Positions 12,989 through 49,412 of a stretch of DNA of 50,459 nt are shown in pieces. Origin of the DNA: Methanosaeta sp. PtaB.Bin039 (GTDB lineage Archaea > Halobacteriota > Methanosarcinia > Methanotrichales > Methanotrichaceae); contig MVQI01000058.1 in assembly GCA_002067795.1 (NCBI GenBank), forward strand, positions 1-50,459, in the 5' to 3' direction. The translations under genes and the position numbers were made by a program. Below the pieces are notes generated by a model. It was not told the DNA's origin and did no database searches. It saw nothing but the letters and a program-made list of their open reading frames with translations. Positions within the stretch are counted from its first letter, which is position 1. Every line of letters begins with the position of its first letter.

Positions 12989-12994
12989 GTGATA

Positions 12995-13519
12995 ATGATG
13001 AGATTCATCAGAACTGTGTCAGTATTGGGCGCCCTCTGCTTGCTCATGATGTCTGCGTTAGCAGCTGGAAATGGCGGAGGCAATAACCAGCCAAATGCCG
13101 CTTTGCAGATGAGCCAAGATCGCTCCCAGACTCAAACCATGAATCAAGATCAGATCCAAACTCAAACCATGAATCAGGATCAGATCCAAACTCAGACCAT
13201 GAATCAAGATCAGATCCAAACTCAAACTATGAATCAGGATCAGATCCAAACTCAAACTATGAATCAGGATCAGATCCAAACCAGAACAATGGATCAGAAT
13301 CTGGAATTGCTGATGGTTCAAACAAAGACCATGAATCAGAAAATAGAGCAGTTGAAGGCGGAAATCCAAACGATGGACCAGACTCAGGCTCAAACAATAA
13401 CAATGAATCAGGAACTGGAAAAGCTAATGGCTCAGGTACAAACTATGAATCAGGAAATCGAAACGCTGATCTCTCAGATCCAGATGATAATCCAAAGAGT
13501 TGAGCTACTTATAGGATAG
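12995..13519 (+). CDS. Secreted Gln/Thr/Asn-rich protein of 10- and 14-residue repeats
   Basis: About 174 residues: a signal peptide ending near ALAAG, a glycine/asparagine linker, then repeats that all begin Met-Asn/Asp/Ser-Gln. Counted from an upstream GTG at 12989, residues 41-100 are six 10-residue units (consensus MNQDQIQTQT, the first degenerate). From residue 101 the unit lengths are 14, 14, 10, 14 and 14, and the longer ones have alternating hydrophobic residues like a coiled coil (for example KIEQLKAEIQ). No enzyme or known domain is recognised. A surface or pseudo-periplasmic structural role is a guess. The start may be ATG 12995 or 12998. It stands alone between a transporter gene and a decayed gene. 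Confidence 0.8.
   Translation: MMRFIRTVSVLGALCLLMMSALAAGNGGGNNQPNAALQMSQDRSQTQTMNQDQIQTQTMNQDQIQTQTMNQDQIQTQTMNQDQIQTQTMNQDQIQTRTMDQNLELLMVQTKTMNQKIEQLKAEIQTMDQTQAQTITMNQELEKLMAQVQTMNQEIETLISQIQMIIQRVELLIG
13109..13288 (+). repeat. 30-bp in-frame tandem repeat, six units
   Basis: Six head-to-tail 30-bp units encode MNQDQIQTQT-type decapeptides. The five units from 13139 differ only at a few, mostly synonymous, bases (CAA/CAG, ACC/ACT), which implies recent expansion by slippage or recombination and likely length variation between strains. Confidence 0.9.
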
Positions 13520-45234: not shown

Positions 45235-45834
45235 TCAGGCCGGCATGACAGCCCCGGCCCAGGAATCCCCAAATTGGCTGTAAGCTGTATAGCTTCCGGC
45301 AACCGGCTCTTTTAGCCCGAGATCCAGGGAGTAAAGGCTGTCTGAGGAGACCAGACGCAGCGTCAAGACCTCCCCGCTGACTTCCCCAACTGCTGAAACG
45401 GGATCGACCACCTCTCCGGTCTTGAGCGAGCCGTGGCCAAAGACCGTCCCGCCGCTCTGGTACAGCTCCAGATCCAGGCTGCGTGTGGATGGCCCTGTCA
45501 TCTGCAGCGCCCAGCTGCCGGAGACTGCCCGCAAGGACGGGGCCGACACTGGCTGCTCTGATGGTGGGGGACTTGTGACGGATTCCCCGGCATCAGCCGA
45601 GCCGTTCCCAGTTGCATTCGCATCCTCGTCCTCATCTGTACCCAGATTCCAGGCCTTTCTGGAGCTCCTTGGGTCAGGAGCGAAGCGGGCATCGTAGACA
45701 GGGGAGACCTCCCCCCGGGAAGTGGAGATGTACTTGTCCACATCGCTCTGGGCAGAGACGTGGAGGCTGACGGCGAAACATGCAAGTATTGCCAGGGAGA
45801 TGAGGGGGATTGCGACTCGAAGATCGATTTTCAT
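45235..45834 (-). CDS. Secreted beta-rich protein, tandem paralogue 1
   Basis: About 199 residues: a signal peptide (VAIPLISLAILACFAVSLHVSA), an Asp/Ser/Pro-rich linker (DEDEDANATGNGSADAGE) and a C-terminal domain of about 95 residues: GSWALQM...LDLELYQSGGTVFGHGSL...GEVSGEVLTLRLV...LYSLDLGL...GSYTAYSQFG. The same domain ends the next two minus-strand genes. The alternating strands suggest a calycin-like barrel. ATG 45834 (MKIDLRVA) is preferred over GTG 45846. Function unknown. Confidence 0.7.
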   Translation of the reverse strand: MKIDLRVAIPLISLAILACFAVSLHVSAQSDVDKYISTSRGEVSPVYDARFAPDPRSSRKAWNLGTDEDEDANATGNGSADAGESVTSPPPSEQPVSAPSLRAVSGSWALQMTGPSTRSLDLELYQSGGTVFGHGSLKTGEVVDPVSAVGEVSGEVLTLRLVSSDSLYSLDLGLKEPVAGSYTAYSQFGDSWAGAVMPA

Positions 45835-45936
45835 ATTTTCAACCACCGCTATGTTATGCGAGATTCTGATTGGCCGATAAGCTTTATCGACGGAAAAGGA
45901 TTATGGGACCTATAAAAAATCCCCAATCGTCGATAT

Positions 45937-46572
45937 CTAGTAGCCAAAACCGCTGATCTCGTCACGGACTATGACACCGGACTGGCCGTACAGGGTGAAA
46001 TCCCCGCTGGCCTCCTGGTCCTCCACGGTCAGATTGAGCAGGTAAAGGCTGGCTCCGGTCAGGTCCATCAGGTAAAGTGTGGCGTTTTGCCCTTGTACCG
46101 AACCAGAAGCAACCAGCTCCTGAGTGTAGTTTACCTGGGTCAGAGAACCCGTCCCAAACACAACCGAATCAACCTGGAATAAGGAAAGATCCAACGTCAC
46201 CTCATCCGGCAGAAGCACAGACCAGTTCCCAGCCAGGCTGGCCATCTCGCCCGTCCCTTTGGCCAAGGACGCTTCCTGAGAAGATGTGGCGTTCTTCACC
46301 TCTTTGACAGTGCTCTTTACTACCGGCTCTTCGGCAGAATCGTTGGCCTGAAACGATGCCACAACCGGAACACCAGTGCCAAGCGGCATGGGAGTCGCTG
46401 GCGTGGATGTCTGAGCACCGACACCCACTCCAGGGGTCATGCCGGTCTTGCCTACGGTGAATATGGAAGCATCATCGAGGTTCGAAGCCATCGATCCTTC
46501 ATCTTCAGATGCTACAAGAGGCAGGCCTGCAAAGGCAAGCGCTGTGATCATAACGAGAAACATAAGTCTCAT
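45937..46572 (-). CDS. Secreted beta-rich protein, tandem paralogue 2
   Basis: 211 residues: a signal peptide (MRLMFLVMITALAFAGLPLVAS), a low-complexity linker and the shared C-terminal domain (GNWSVLL...LDLSLFQVDSVVFGTGSL...ASGSVQGQNATLYLM...LYLLNLTV...ASGDFTLYGQSG). Several N-x-T sites. ATG 46572 follows AGGTGA seven bases upstream. About 100 bp separate it from paralogue 1. Confidence 0.7.
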   Translation of the reverse strand: MRLMFLVMITALAFAGLPLVASEDEGSMASNLDDASIFTVGKTGMTPGVGVGAQTSTPATPMPLGTGVPVVASFQANDSAEEPVVKSTVKEVKNATSSQEASLAKGTGEMASLAGNWSVLLPDEVTLDLSLFQVDSVVFGTGSLTQVNYTQELVASGSVQGQNATLYLMDLTGASLYLLNLTVEDQEASGDFTLYGQSGVIVRDEISGFGY

Positions 46573-46739
46573 GAATCGTTCACCTGAAGGTGAAGATGGA
46601 CCCACGGATATAAAGGCCTTGGCCTGGCAGACCTCCTCGCTCGATAATCGAACCTGCAGGGCGATGAGCGCAATTGGACATGTGTCCTGAGGATTGAATG
46701 GAAAATTAAAAAAATAAGGGAAAGACGCGTCCAGCTCTT

Positions 46740-47294
46740 TTAGCTCAGGGTCCTGGCAACGTCCTTCTCGCCTATCACACGTCCCTGCAGAGGTACTCCG
46801 CCGGCGCTGCTATAGGCATCGAAATTTCCGTCGGTGCGGTTGTCGCTAATCGGAAGACGCATCTGGAAGAGCGTCAGTTGGGGATAGCTCACCACGGCCA
46901 GGCTCATGGTGCCCTCGGTGATCGCTCCGTTGGCGGTTATCAGCTGGTTTGATCCTTCTACCGGCATTGTGCCGGCTCCAAAGACTATTGTGCCGATCTG
47001 TGTCAGGGTGAGCCGCATGCTGCCCACGATCTTATCATTGAGGTTTCGCAGCTCCATAGACCAGTTGCCTCGCACGTCGTACATGCTATAGGCGGTTGCG
47101 CTGCCGGTAGCGCCACCGGTCTTGGCAAGGTACTCCCCTGTATGCTCGGTGCTTGATATATCCATCCAGCCCAGGTTCTCACCAAGGACATCCCCTGGCT
47201 TGGTTATGGTTGTAGCGGTCTTCTGGGCCAGGCCAGAGCTGACCAGGAAAGCAACCAATATCAGGGTAAACAGTGTTAGCTTAAGTCTCATCAT
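46740..47294 (-). CDS. Secreted beta-rich protein, tandem paralogue 3
   Basis: 184 residues: a signal peptide (MRLKLTLFTLILVAFLVSSGLA), a short linker and the shared domain (GNWSMELRNL...MRLTLTQIGTIVFGAGTM...ANGAITEGTMSLAVV...LFQMRLPI...DGNFDAYSSAG). ATG 47294 follows GGAGGTT. It is the first gene of the three in transcription order, with the shortest linker. The three are probably products of local duplication. Confidence 0.7.
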   Translation of the reverse strand: MMRLKLTLFTLILVAFLVSSGLAQKTATTITKPGDVLGENLGWMDISSTEHTGEYLAKTGGATGSATAYSMYDVRGNWSMELRNLNDKIVGSMRLTLTQIGTIVFGAGTMPVEGSNQLITANGAITEGTMSLAVVSYPQLTLFQMRLPISDNRTDGNFDAYSSAGGVPLQGRVIGEKDVARTLS

Positions 47295-47412
47295 CTGAAC
47301 CTCCGTTTGTCGCCAATTCAAATAGGGGGCAATGCCACCCATGAAGCATCTCCGGAAGGCAGCTTAAATCTTTTGGCAGGGATCGGACTTTGCCCGCCCG
47401 CAAAAAAATGAT

Positions 47413-48570
47413 CTATTCCCGCTCATCATGCATCCCAGCCAGGATGCTGGAGTGATCCTGCCGGAAGGCCTGATCCTTCATCAGGCAGGCGCACTTTCCT
47501 GAGAACCATCGATAGCGGCTCATCTTCCTCCAGATATCGGCCAGGCTCTGCTTCCGGACGTTTCCGAAGCTCAAAGGAAGGTAGGCACAGGGCAGAGCCT
47601 CTCCGGATGCATCAACATGAATCCATCGCCTGCCGGCGAAGCATCCGAACATCTCCGGAGACAACAAATAGGGAAGCGCAGTCACCCTTGGACCCTCGAC
47701 GTTGGCGTTCTTGCTGCGATGAAACGCCTTCAACCGGGATATATCGCCTTTGGAGAGGGTCTCGTCCAGATGGTCGCACCAACGTCCTACTGCCACGATC
47801 TCATAGAATGAGAGCTCGTGAACACCCATCCTGCAGGCCAGGGAGTAAGCCTCCTCCAGCTGGTCGATGTTGTGAGGGGAGACCACCATGAACAGGTCGG
47901 TCAAAATCCCGGCCTTCAATGCAGACTCTGCCCCTGCCAGGGCATCGGCGAATGCGCCTTCTCGTCCGCGGAATTTGTCATGCTGCTGGGCCAGCGGGCT
48001 ATCGATGCTGATCCTAACCGCGTATATCCCGGCAGCCTTCAGGCAGCGTGCACGATCGGGAGTAAGGCCGTATCCGCTGGAGAAACTCGTGGCAACCGCA
48101 CGGCTGTCAACCGAGGCCACCAGATCCGGCAGATCGTGCCGCAGCATGGGCTCGCCACCGTCGAAGGTTATCAGATAGCTGCCCAGCTGCAGAGCCTCGT
48201 TCACCACACGGCGCACCGTCTCGGATGGAAGAACTTCGCCGCCGCGGGATGGCGCAGCGCAATGAAGGCAGCGGTTGGGGCAAGCCCTGACCACGGCTAT
48301 GGAGAACTGATCCGGAACGCGCCGACGCAATATCGCCCCGATCTGCGAGGAGATCATGCGGTCGAAGGCAGGGCTGGGCGCGGGAGGGATCCAGGTCGAG
48401 AAGATGGTCTGCTGGCCTGAGGATATGGGCTTTTCGTCGGCAAACACCCTGTTGATGAGATCGATCACCGGCGATGCCAGGACCGCCAATGGACCGCTTG
48501 GGACCAGTCGTATTCGTCCCCCATCGCTGCGAAGGTCCACGCTCAGCACAGAGGTCTCTGCAATGGGCAT
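47413..48570 (-). CDS. Radical SAM protein with SPASM-like C-terminus
   Basis: 385 residues. About 90 leading residues precede the radical SAM cluster CPNRCLHC (Cys97, 101, 104). Then come ITFDGGEPMLRHDL for SAM binding and strands through VRISIDSPL and ELSFYEIVAVGRW. Further cysteines in GCFAGRRWIHVDASGEALPCAY and the KCACLM tail suggest auxiliary clusters as in SPASM/Twitch proteins, where such enzymes modify peptides or cofactors. The ATG with GGTGA upstream lies inside the 3' end of the polyprenyl synthase gene, overlapping by 28 bases, so the two are coupled. Substrate unknown. Confidence 0.88.
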   Translation of the reverse strand: MPIAETSVLSVDLRSDGGRIRLVPSGPLAVLASPVIDLINRVFADEKPISSGQQTIFSTWIPPAPSPAFDRMISSQIGAILRRRVPDQFSIAVVRACPNRCLHCAAPSRGGEVLPSETVRRVVNEALQLGSYLITFDGGEPMLRHDLPDLVASVDSRAVATSFSSGYGLTPDRARCLKAAGIYAVRISIDSPLAQQHDKFRGREGAFADALAGAESALKAGILTDLFMVVSPHNIDQLEEAYSLACRMGVHELSFYEIVAVGRWCDHLDETLSKGDISRLKAFHRSKNANVEGPRVTALPYLLSPEMFGCFAGRRWIHVDASGEALPCAYLPLSFGNVRKQSLADIWRKMSRYRWFSGKCACLMKDQAFRQDHSSILAGMHDERE

Positions 48571-49412
48571 TTATTCACCGGGCGCCTTGTCATCACATCG
48601 AGAATCAACATCAATCGGTCCTTCATAGCCTGATCGCCCCCGGACTCCGACAGAGCTTTGCCGGCAGCGGTTGAATGCTCCTGTACCAGCCTGGAGCAGA
48701 CATCCCATGCATCCTGGGCGGACCCTTTCTCCATATGCAGGCGTGGAAGCGTGACCGAACTCTTTACCGACCTCTTCTTCTGGTCCACTCCAAAGACCTC
48801 CCCCAAATCATCCATTATCTGATAGGCCAGACCCAGGTTGCGGCCGTAGCTCTCTAATAGAGCCTGATCTCGAGATGACGCTCCACCAATCATACATCCC
48901 AGGCGGGCGGAGCTGGCGAAGAGGGATGCGGTCTTGCCAAAGACGCATTGATAATACTCCTCGACCGAGGATATGCGGGAGAGGTCCAGCATCTCGCCTT
49001 CTGCCATGTTCATGCAGGCACGGGCAAATCCCTGAATTACGGGGCGACCGTAAGCGGAGATGAGATCGATAGACCGGGAGATCAGATAATCGCCACCCAG
49101 TAGGGCAGCATCAATGCCGTACCTTCTAACAGCGCTGGGAGCTCCTCGCCTCTCCACACCTCCGTCCAGGATGTCGTCATGGACGAGGGAGGCTGCATGG
49201 ACCAGCTCAATGGCCAGCGCGGCATCAAGGGCTCTGCCTGGCGGGCAGCCAAATGCCCTGGCTGATACGAGGAGTATGAGAGGTCGAACTCTCTTGCCTG
49301 GAGAGGAGAGAACGTAATCCACCATCTCCCCCATGTCGGGACGCAGACACTCTCCGCCAAGAGACTTCAGGCCGTCCTCTATCAGCTTGAGCTCTTCCCA
49401 GTCTGAGAACAT
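48543..49412 (-). CDS. trans-Isoprenyl diphosphate synthase (GGPP/polyprenyl type), variant second motif
   Basis: 289 residues of the all-helical prenyl synthase family: GKRVRPLILLVSA, first Asp-rich motif DDILD at 79-83 in LVHDDILDGGVERRG, KTASLFASSARLG, and GLAYQIMDDLGEVFG. The second Asp-rich motif reads DDLGE (201-205) rather than DDxxD, and the usual downstream GK-G-D stretch is changed to DQKKRSVKSS. This may mean altered chain length or a modified role. It is co-transcribed and overlapping with a radical SAM gene, so a joint isoprenoid-linked pathway is possible; no product can be named. Confidence 0.9.
   Translation of the reverse strand: MFSDWEELKLIEDGLKSLGGECLRPDMGEMVDYVLSSPGKRVRPLILLVSARAFGCPPGRALDAALAIELVHAASLVHDDILDGGVERRGAPSAVRRYGIDAALLGGDYLISRSIDLISAYGRPVIQGFARACMNMAEGEMLDLSRISSVEEYYQCVFGKTASLFASSARLGCMIGGASSRDQALLESYGRNLGLAYQIMDDLGEVFGVDQKKRSVKSSVTLPRLHMEKGSAQDAWDVCSRLVQEHSTAAGKALSESGGDQAMKDRLMLILDVMTRRPVNKCPLQRPLC

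Follow-up and report, generated by a model that had tools for sequence, protein, structure and literature searches.

A radical SAM gene overlapping a prenyl diphosphate synthase gene in Methanosaeta: candidates for a methanophenazine biosynthesis pathway

Two overlapping minus-strand genes in the window (the whole 50,459-nucleotide stretch of DNA analysed here) encode a prenyl diphosphate synthase and a radical SAM protein, hereafter protein A, and both open reading frames were confirmed at the coordinates given in Table 1. The start of the downstream gene reads GGTGA-ATAA-ATG on the minus strand, and the GGTGA element lies within the 3' end of the synthase gene, as the original prediction had described. 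This gene order suggests that the synthase and protein A are produced jointly. A tRNA-Asp called by ARAGORN within the radical SAM gene (47456-47544) is probably false. Adjoining the pair are three consecutive minus-strand open reading frames with signal-like starts (203, 222 and 200 amino acids; 45235-47342), relatives of which were found in loci L076 and L077. Elsewhere in the window, an open reading frame with a 30-bp tandem repeat encodes MNQDQIQTQT-like units after a signal-like start (12989-13519), and a 22-bp unit is present in 2.5 copies with a 100% match at the extreme contig end (50404-50459).

Table 1. Features of the synthase and radical SAM gene pair, in window positions
Feature	Position	Strand	Observation
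Prenyl diphosphate synthase, geranylfarnesyl diphosphate synthase-like, 289 amino acids	48543..49412	-	PF00348, 165.8 bits
First Asp-rich motif DDILD, residues 79-83	49164..49178	-	DDxxD in all 66 distinct aligned synthases
Second motif DDLGE, residues 201-205, without following GK..G.D	48798..48812	-	DDxxE in 63/66 distinct synthases
Gene overlap	48543..48570	-	28 nucleotides, two different frames
GGTGA, ribosome-binding-site-like	48575..48579	-	4 nucleotides ahead of the radical SAM ATG; read from the sequence, function putative
Radical SAM/SPASM-like protein A, 385 amino acids	47413..48570	-	PF04055, 62 bits (cut-off 29.5); PF13186, 42.4 bits (cut-off 21.5)
CX3CX2C cluster motif, residues 97-104	48259..48282	-	Invariant in 23/23 aligned members
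SPASM-like region with C310, C328 and C362	47485..47643	-	All three cysteines invariant in 23/23 aligned members

The synthase carries a PF00348 domain, a DDxxD first motif and a DDxxE second motif, the same combination as in the type described by NCBIfam model NF040627 (Methanosarcina geranylfarnesyl diphosphate synthase, GFPS). This model is also its best NCBIfam match, but the score of 222.1 bits misses the equivalog cut-off of 600, and the protein is therefore described as GFPS-like rather than filed as a member. Among solved chains, its best match is 3ipi (E 6.1e-60; entry name geranyltranstransferase), which we take to be a Methanosarcina protein and in which the second motif is likewise DDxxE without GK..G.D. 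According to the chain-length rule, small residues ahead of the first motif go with a long chain, and the residues A-S just before this motif in the window's synthase would be compatible with a long-chain product. In excerpts from three papers (PMC3017947, PMC8546582, PMC9478090), the Methanosarcina synthase MM_0789 is credited with the C25 tail of methanophenazine.

The original prediction placed emphasis on the second motif of the synthase, where DDLGE replaces DDxxD and the GK..G.D stretch is absent. Both features are indeed present, but the emphasis is not borne out, as DDxxE without GK..G.D is the norm for this family. All but three of the 66 distinct aligned synthases have this form, including those of f7, f12, f18 and f32 (L118-L130; f numbers denote families), which lack the radical SAM gene except in one f18 genome, G130. 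Because the motif is shared by the synthase family as a whole, it is no sign of the gene pair, and we rejected it as a marker of new function. The motif change is nevertheless not the common form in ordinary geranylgeranyl diphosphate synthases, an outcome that had been named as evidence against the prediction: the three canonical proteins (L002, L127 and L131), of which L002 is a second synthase of the window's genome, keep both DDxxD and GK..G.D. Several of the families f7, f12, f18 and f32 also carry PF02621, a marker of menaquinone biosynthesis, and their GFPS-like synthases are perhaps chain makers for menaquinone.

Protein A can be placed in the radical SAM superfamily on the basis of its PF04055 score and its CX3CX2C motif. 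SPASM proteins have a seven-cysteine pattern with two auxiliary clusters. Protein A departs from this pattern in that just C310, C328 and C362 are invariant, and we use the label 'SPASM-like' because there are three such cysteines instead of seven. Since these three further cysteines are kept in all aligned members, protein A likely holds one auxiliary Fe-S cluster with three cysteine ligands. A structure search with its predicted structure (pLDDT 88.8) returned SkfB, SuiB, PqqE, BlsE, viperin and MoaA as the closest folds (Z 21.5 to 25.9), and the radical SAM lipid enzyme GDGT-MAS (7tol) was also among the matches (Z 19.4). These matches indicate the general fold of protein A, not its reaction.

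The best NCBIfam model for protein A is that of the heme b synthase AhbD (TIGR04545). However, an identity as AhbD was ruled out by a score of 131 bits where the cut-off is 500, and an identity as PqqE was ruled out in the same manner (TIGR02109, 95.3 bits against 381.35). The AhbD match is consistent with an alternative explanation, namely that protein A performs an AhbD/NirJ-like step in heme or cytochrome biosynthesis and that its link to the synthase reflects clustering of respiratory genes. Loci of f3 contain a true AhbD (566.7 bits) with a CcmE-like gene close by, and heme genes near this synthase are noted in an excerpt from PMC3017947. Yet the score of protein A is far below the AhbD cut-off, and the f3 loci already possess a separate, true AhbD. 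The distribution data described below also speak against this explanation.

To assess conservation of the gene pair, we examined 91 A-type radical SAM loci, which belong to 75 genomes, each counted once. Three genomes of f1, the family of the window, lie outside this count (G002, G003 and G012), and G003 has no match of A strength. In 63 of the 75 genomes, the two genes share a strand and the synthase gene immediately precedes the radical SAM gene; these comprise 34/34 in f1, 28/28 in f3 and 1/1 in genus g127 of f37. This arrangement is absent in f2 (0/2), f4 (0/5) and f36 (0/5), where one f36 locus reaches no further than 111 bp upstream of the radical SAM gene. Gaps between the two genes, which are approximate as they were taken from alignment ends, are mostly -25 in f1 and +32 to +224 in f3. 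Thus, the pair is kept in close relatives, and the lack of conservation that had been named as counting against the original prediction was not seen.

The extent of this adjacency shows that the pairing is more than chance. Gene order alone is no proof of function, and the missing adjacency in all 12 genomes of f2, f4 and f36 would be expected if the two genes were neighbours without a common pathway. We consider this very improbable, given that an overlap or short gap is maintained in two families plus genome G393 of f37 (63 genomes), and that a paralogue of protein A adjoins another prenyl-lipid enzyme. The synthase family is also present in f7, f12 and f32, all of which are without the radical SAM family. 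Conversely, at a threshold of 1e-33, no GFPS-like synthase is among the matches listed for f4 (2/2 genomes) or for f9, f13, f15 and f19 (13/13 genomes).

The radical SAM gene is present in three copies in the majority of genomes, and a tree splits these into A (the copy beside the synthase), B and C. Copy B follows genes for a UbiA prenyltransferase and a flavoprotein of the geranylgeranyl reductase family in loci L060-L063 and in L253 of G393, while a detailed reading of one C locus (L068) revealed neighbours that look unrelated. The genome of the window carries copies A and B as well as genes for the UbiA enzyme (C81:188-1051) and for the flavoprotein (C29:26245-27360). Copy C was not found in this assembly (G000, 96% complete) at E<=1e-30. 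Almost every relative has three copies, and the missing one could be due to an assembly gap or a loss. A small conserved open reading frame that might serve as a peptide precursor was not recognized among 2992 small open reading frames near 215 loci, where the clusters, judged from few members, were taken as alternative frames of neighbouring genes.

The overlap of the radical SAM gene with the gene of a chain-making enzyme, along with the presence of GDGT-MAS among the fold matches, could also mean that the target modified by protein A is the isoprenoid chain or some other membrane lipid, and not an aromatic head group. We view this as unlikely. SkfB, SuiB, PqqE, BlsE, viperin and MoaA are closer in fold (Z 21.5 to 25.9 versus 19.4), although fold gives no function, and all three paralogues share their profile with an aromatic-prenyltransferase-like gene.

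Members of the radical SAM family are present in 197 of 237 genomes of the class at E<=1e-60 and in 68 of 294 genomes of the phylum at E<=1e-40. Twenty of the 40 class genomes without the family were listed, and these comprise six from f35, 13 from genus g125 of f37 and one from f4 (57% completeness). To compare gene content, we used a panel of 80 genomes covering these groups; the radical SAM family is present in 46 of them and absent from 34. The panel was chosen after the distribution of this family had been seen, and its genomes are related to each other, so that the counts below are not independent events. The menaquinone marker PF02621 is found in 1/46 panel genomes with the radical SAM family versus 21/34 without it, and the two are thus nearly mutually exclusive. 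An orthologue of the UbiA enzyme (E<=1e-30) occurs in 33/33 radical SAM-positive Methanosarcinia and in none of the 47 other panel genomes. Similarly, the flavoprotein (E<1e-60) is present in 43/46 positive genomes, with G344, G130 and G184 as the exceptions, versus 0/34 negative genomes.

The most telling contrast is within f37. Genome G393 (67% complete), which corresponds in contig numbers and places to G482 (record UBA10536, Methanoperedenaceae), contains genes for the synthase, the radical SAM protein, the UbiA enzyme and the flavoprotein (L249 and L253) and lacks PF02621. In genus g125, which we presume to be Methanoperedens, PF02621 is found in 9/9 panel genomes and the module in none. 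A swap of the respiratory lipid within one family is therefore a possible reading of this contrast. An excerpt from PMC5244752 describes a Methanoperedens enrichment without methanophenazines, whose genomes encode the futalosine pathway.

This distribution also bears on the proposal of a role in heme or cytochrome biosynthesis. The radical SAM family is absent from g125 and f7, presumably cytochrome-bearing Methanoperedens and Archaeoglobaceae, and the three paralogues co-occur with the UbiA enzyme and the reductase-like flavoprotein. We therefore judge a heme-related role for protein A to be improbable. Among the other families, we assume that f8 corresponds to ANME-1 and f12 to Methanocella. 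Genome G130 (f18; L112, 7707) has PF02621 along with just one radical SAM gene, of type B, and its sister genome G081 has no such gene. This B-type copy represents either contamination or transfer.

A module related to that of Methanosarcinia was also found in f9, f13, f15 and f19. In these families, the radical SAM copies are grouped in a single cluster or in two, together with genes for the flavoprotein, for a further radical SAM protein resembling MoaA, for an NMT1-like protein and for a membrane protein. Several of the genomes concerned correspond to named metagenome-assembled genomes (MAGs), which are mostly labelled Methanocellales (for example, JASEEV010000006), and CP061209 (Met33H) is labelled Methanosarcinales. 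Within the panel, the UbiA orthologue was not found outside Methanosarcinia. Its substitute in these clusters would be the membrane protein, which matches UbiA in profile comparison alone (probability 95.2, E 2.8e-8) and whose structure model (pLDDT 44.9) is unusable. We rejected the NMT1-like protein as a core part of the module, with matches in 17/80 panel genomes, 10 of them strong (all in f9, f13, f15 and f19) and seven weak. In two MAG contigs labelled Cloacimonadota and WOR-3 (L215, 7069-10252; L216, 5107-8232), genes for a ThiC-like enzyme, a UbiA protein, a radical SAM protein and a second UbiA protein stand in a row, which would reflect either a form of the module in bacteria or incorrect binning of the contigs. 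Although these two loci suggested a ThiC-like enzyme as a module part, this candidate was ruled out because ThiC-family matches occur in 77/80 panel genomes regardless of the module and so do not discriminate.

These additional carriers raise the question of whether the product is the same throughout. Judging from the order name, the Methanocellales-labelled MAGs are probably akin to Met12, which is reported in an excerpt from PMC11176372 to be without known methanophenazine enzymes (Hdr, Fpo and VhtC); the product in those MAGs therefore need not be methanophenazine. Together with the reduced module in the two bacteria-labelled MAGs, this would fit a module that makes some other prenylated redox lipid, at least in some carriers. 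In Methanosarcinia, however, the distribution fits organisms with methanophenazine rather than menaquinone (with lineage names that are mostly assumed), and we regard a different redox lipid as quite unlikely, even though the Methanocellales-labelled MAGs also carry the module.

We hypothesize that the synthase and protein A both belong to an oxygen-independent pathway for methanophenazine biosynthesis, to which we assign a probability of about 0.6. The original prediction of a joint pathway on an isoprenoid, possibly methanophenazine, gains from the adjacency in 63 of 75 genomes, the family of the synthase, the co-occurrence of the UbiA enzyme and the flavoprotein, and the near-absence of PF02621; its emphasis on the altered motif contributes nothing to this outcome. 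In the proposed pathway, the synthase would provide the C25 polyprenyl diphosphate tail, and the UbiA-family enzyme would couple the head to this tail. The first isoprene unit of methanophenazine is saturated, and the geranylgeranyl-reductase-like flavoenzyme may be responsible for saturation of the chain next to the head. Once the genes for making the tail, for prenyl transfer and for a reductase-like enzyme are accounted for, the radical SAM enzymes are left for the head. Protein A and its paralogues B and C might carry out oxygen-independent radical steps that build or functionalize the aromatic head group. Methanophenazine is thus the presumed product, and the step of each radical SAM enzyme is likewise putative. 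The least certain part is that protein A acts on the head group and not on the tail, for which we see somewhat less than an even chance.

Several observations weigh against methanophenazine biosynthesis as the shared function. The radical SAM gene occurs without an adjacent synthase gene in f4 and f36, and f4, f9, f13, f15 and f19 have no GFPS-like synthase among their listed matches. The synthase family, in turn, exists without the radical SAM family in f7, f12 and f32, and G130 combines a B-type copy with PF02621. Moreover, the module is present in Methanocellales MAGs that are probably related to Met12, and the UbiA orthologue is limited to Methanosarcinia.

A broader proposal, which we offer tentatively and would not favour over its negation, is that these genes represent an undescribed oxygen-independent route to a phenazine or phenazine-like redox lipid that is unrelated to the bacterial phz genes. 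Three radical SAM/SPASM-like enzymes would make the head, the UbiA enzyme would prenylate it and the flavoenzyme would finish the tail. The module might replace menaquinone biosynthesis as a unit, even within Methanoperedenaceae. Its genes might form a single cluster in MAGs labelled Methanocellales, and two bacteria-labelled MAGs might hold a reduced version.

In the membranes of Methanosarcinales, which are a major biogenic source of methane, methanophenazine ferries electrons from one energy-conserving complex to another. Apart from the tail synthase, its biosynthesis is called unidentified, undeciphered or hidden in excerpts from papers of 2018, 2021 and 2024, and earlier guesses at the pathway, likewise from excerpts, involve UbiE, UbiA, UbiD, UbiB, UbiX or AcoX (PMC6315138, PMC5852551). 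In the open-access literature, which includes no preprints and few subscription journals, we found no link between methanophenazine biosynthesis and a radical SAM enzyme, although both terms co-occur in PMC9385802, PMC7399021 and PMC3087415. With a short list of candidate genes (those for the UbiA enzyme, the flavoenzyme and the three paralogous radical SAM proteins), the pathway question can be addressed directly in a relative amenable to genetics. These findings also suggest that respiratory lipids are exchangeable as gene modules.

The components of the proposed pathway can be compared with several known systems. The Methanosarcina GFPS (MM_0789, NF040627; 3ipi) shares with the window's synthase its fold family and the DDxxE motif without GK..G.D, and f3 has the same radical SAM neighbour. 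In contrast, the window's synthase reaches just 222 bits against the cut-off of 600 and has ~40% identity to the f3 proteins. For protein A, AhbD provides the nearest curated model and is of the same radical SAM/SPASM type, but protein A has an N-terminal part of its own of ~85 residues. PqqE, MoaA, BlsE and SkfB are alike in overall fold (Z 21.5 to 25.9) at 15 to 22% identity, a level of similarity from which function is not inferable. MoaA has an auxiliary cluster with three cysteine ligands, as is likely for protein A, and the open site of this cluster is where its small substrate binds. Finally, the futalosine menaquinone pathway differs from the module in its PF02621 protein, which is absent from 45/46 panel genomes with the radical SAM family, but is like the module in that it combines radical SAM steps with a UbiA-type prenyltransferase to produce a respiratory lipid without oxygen.
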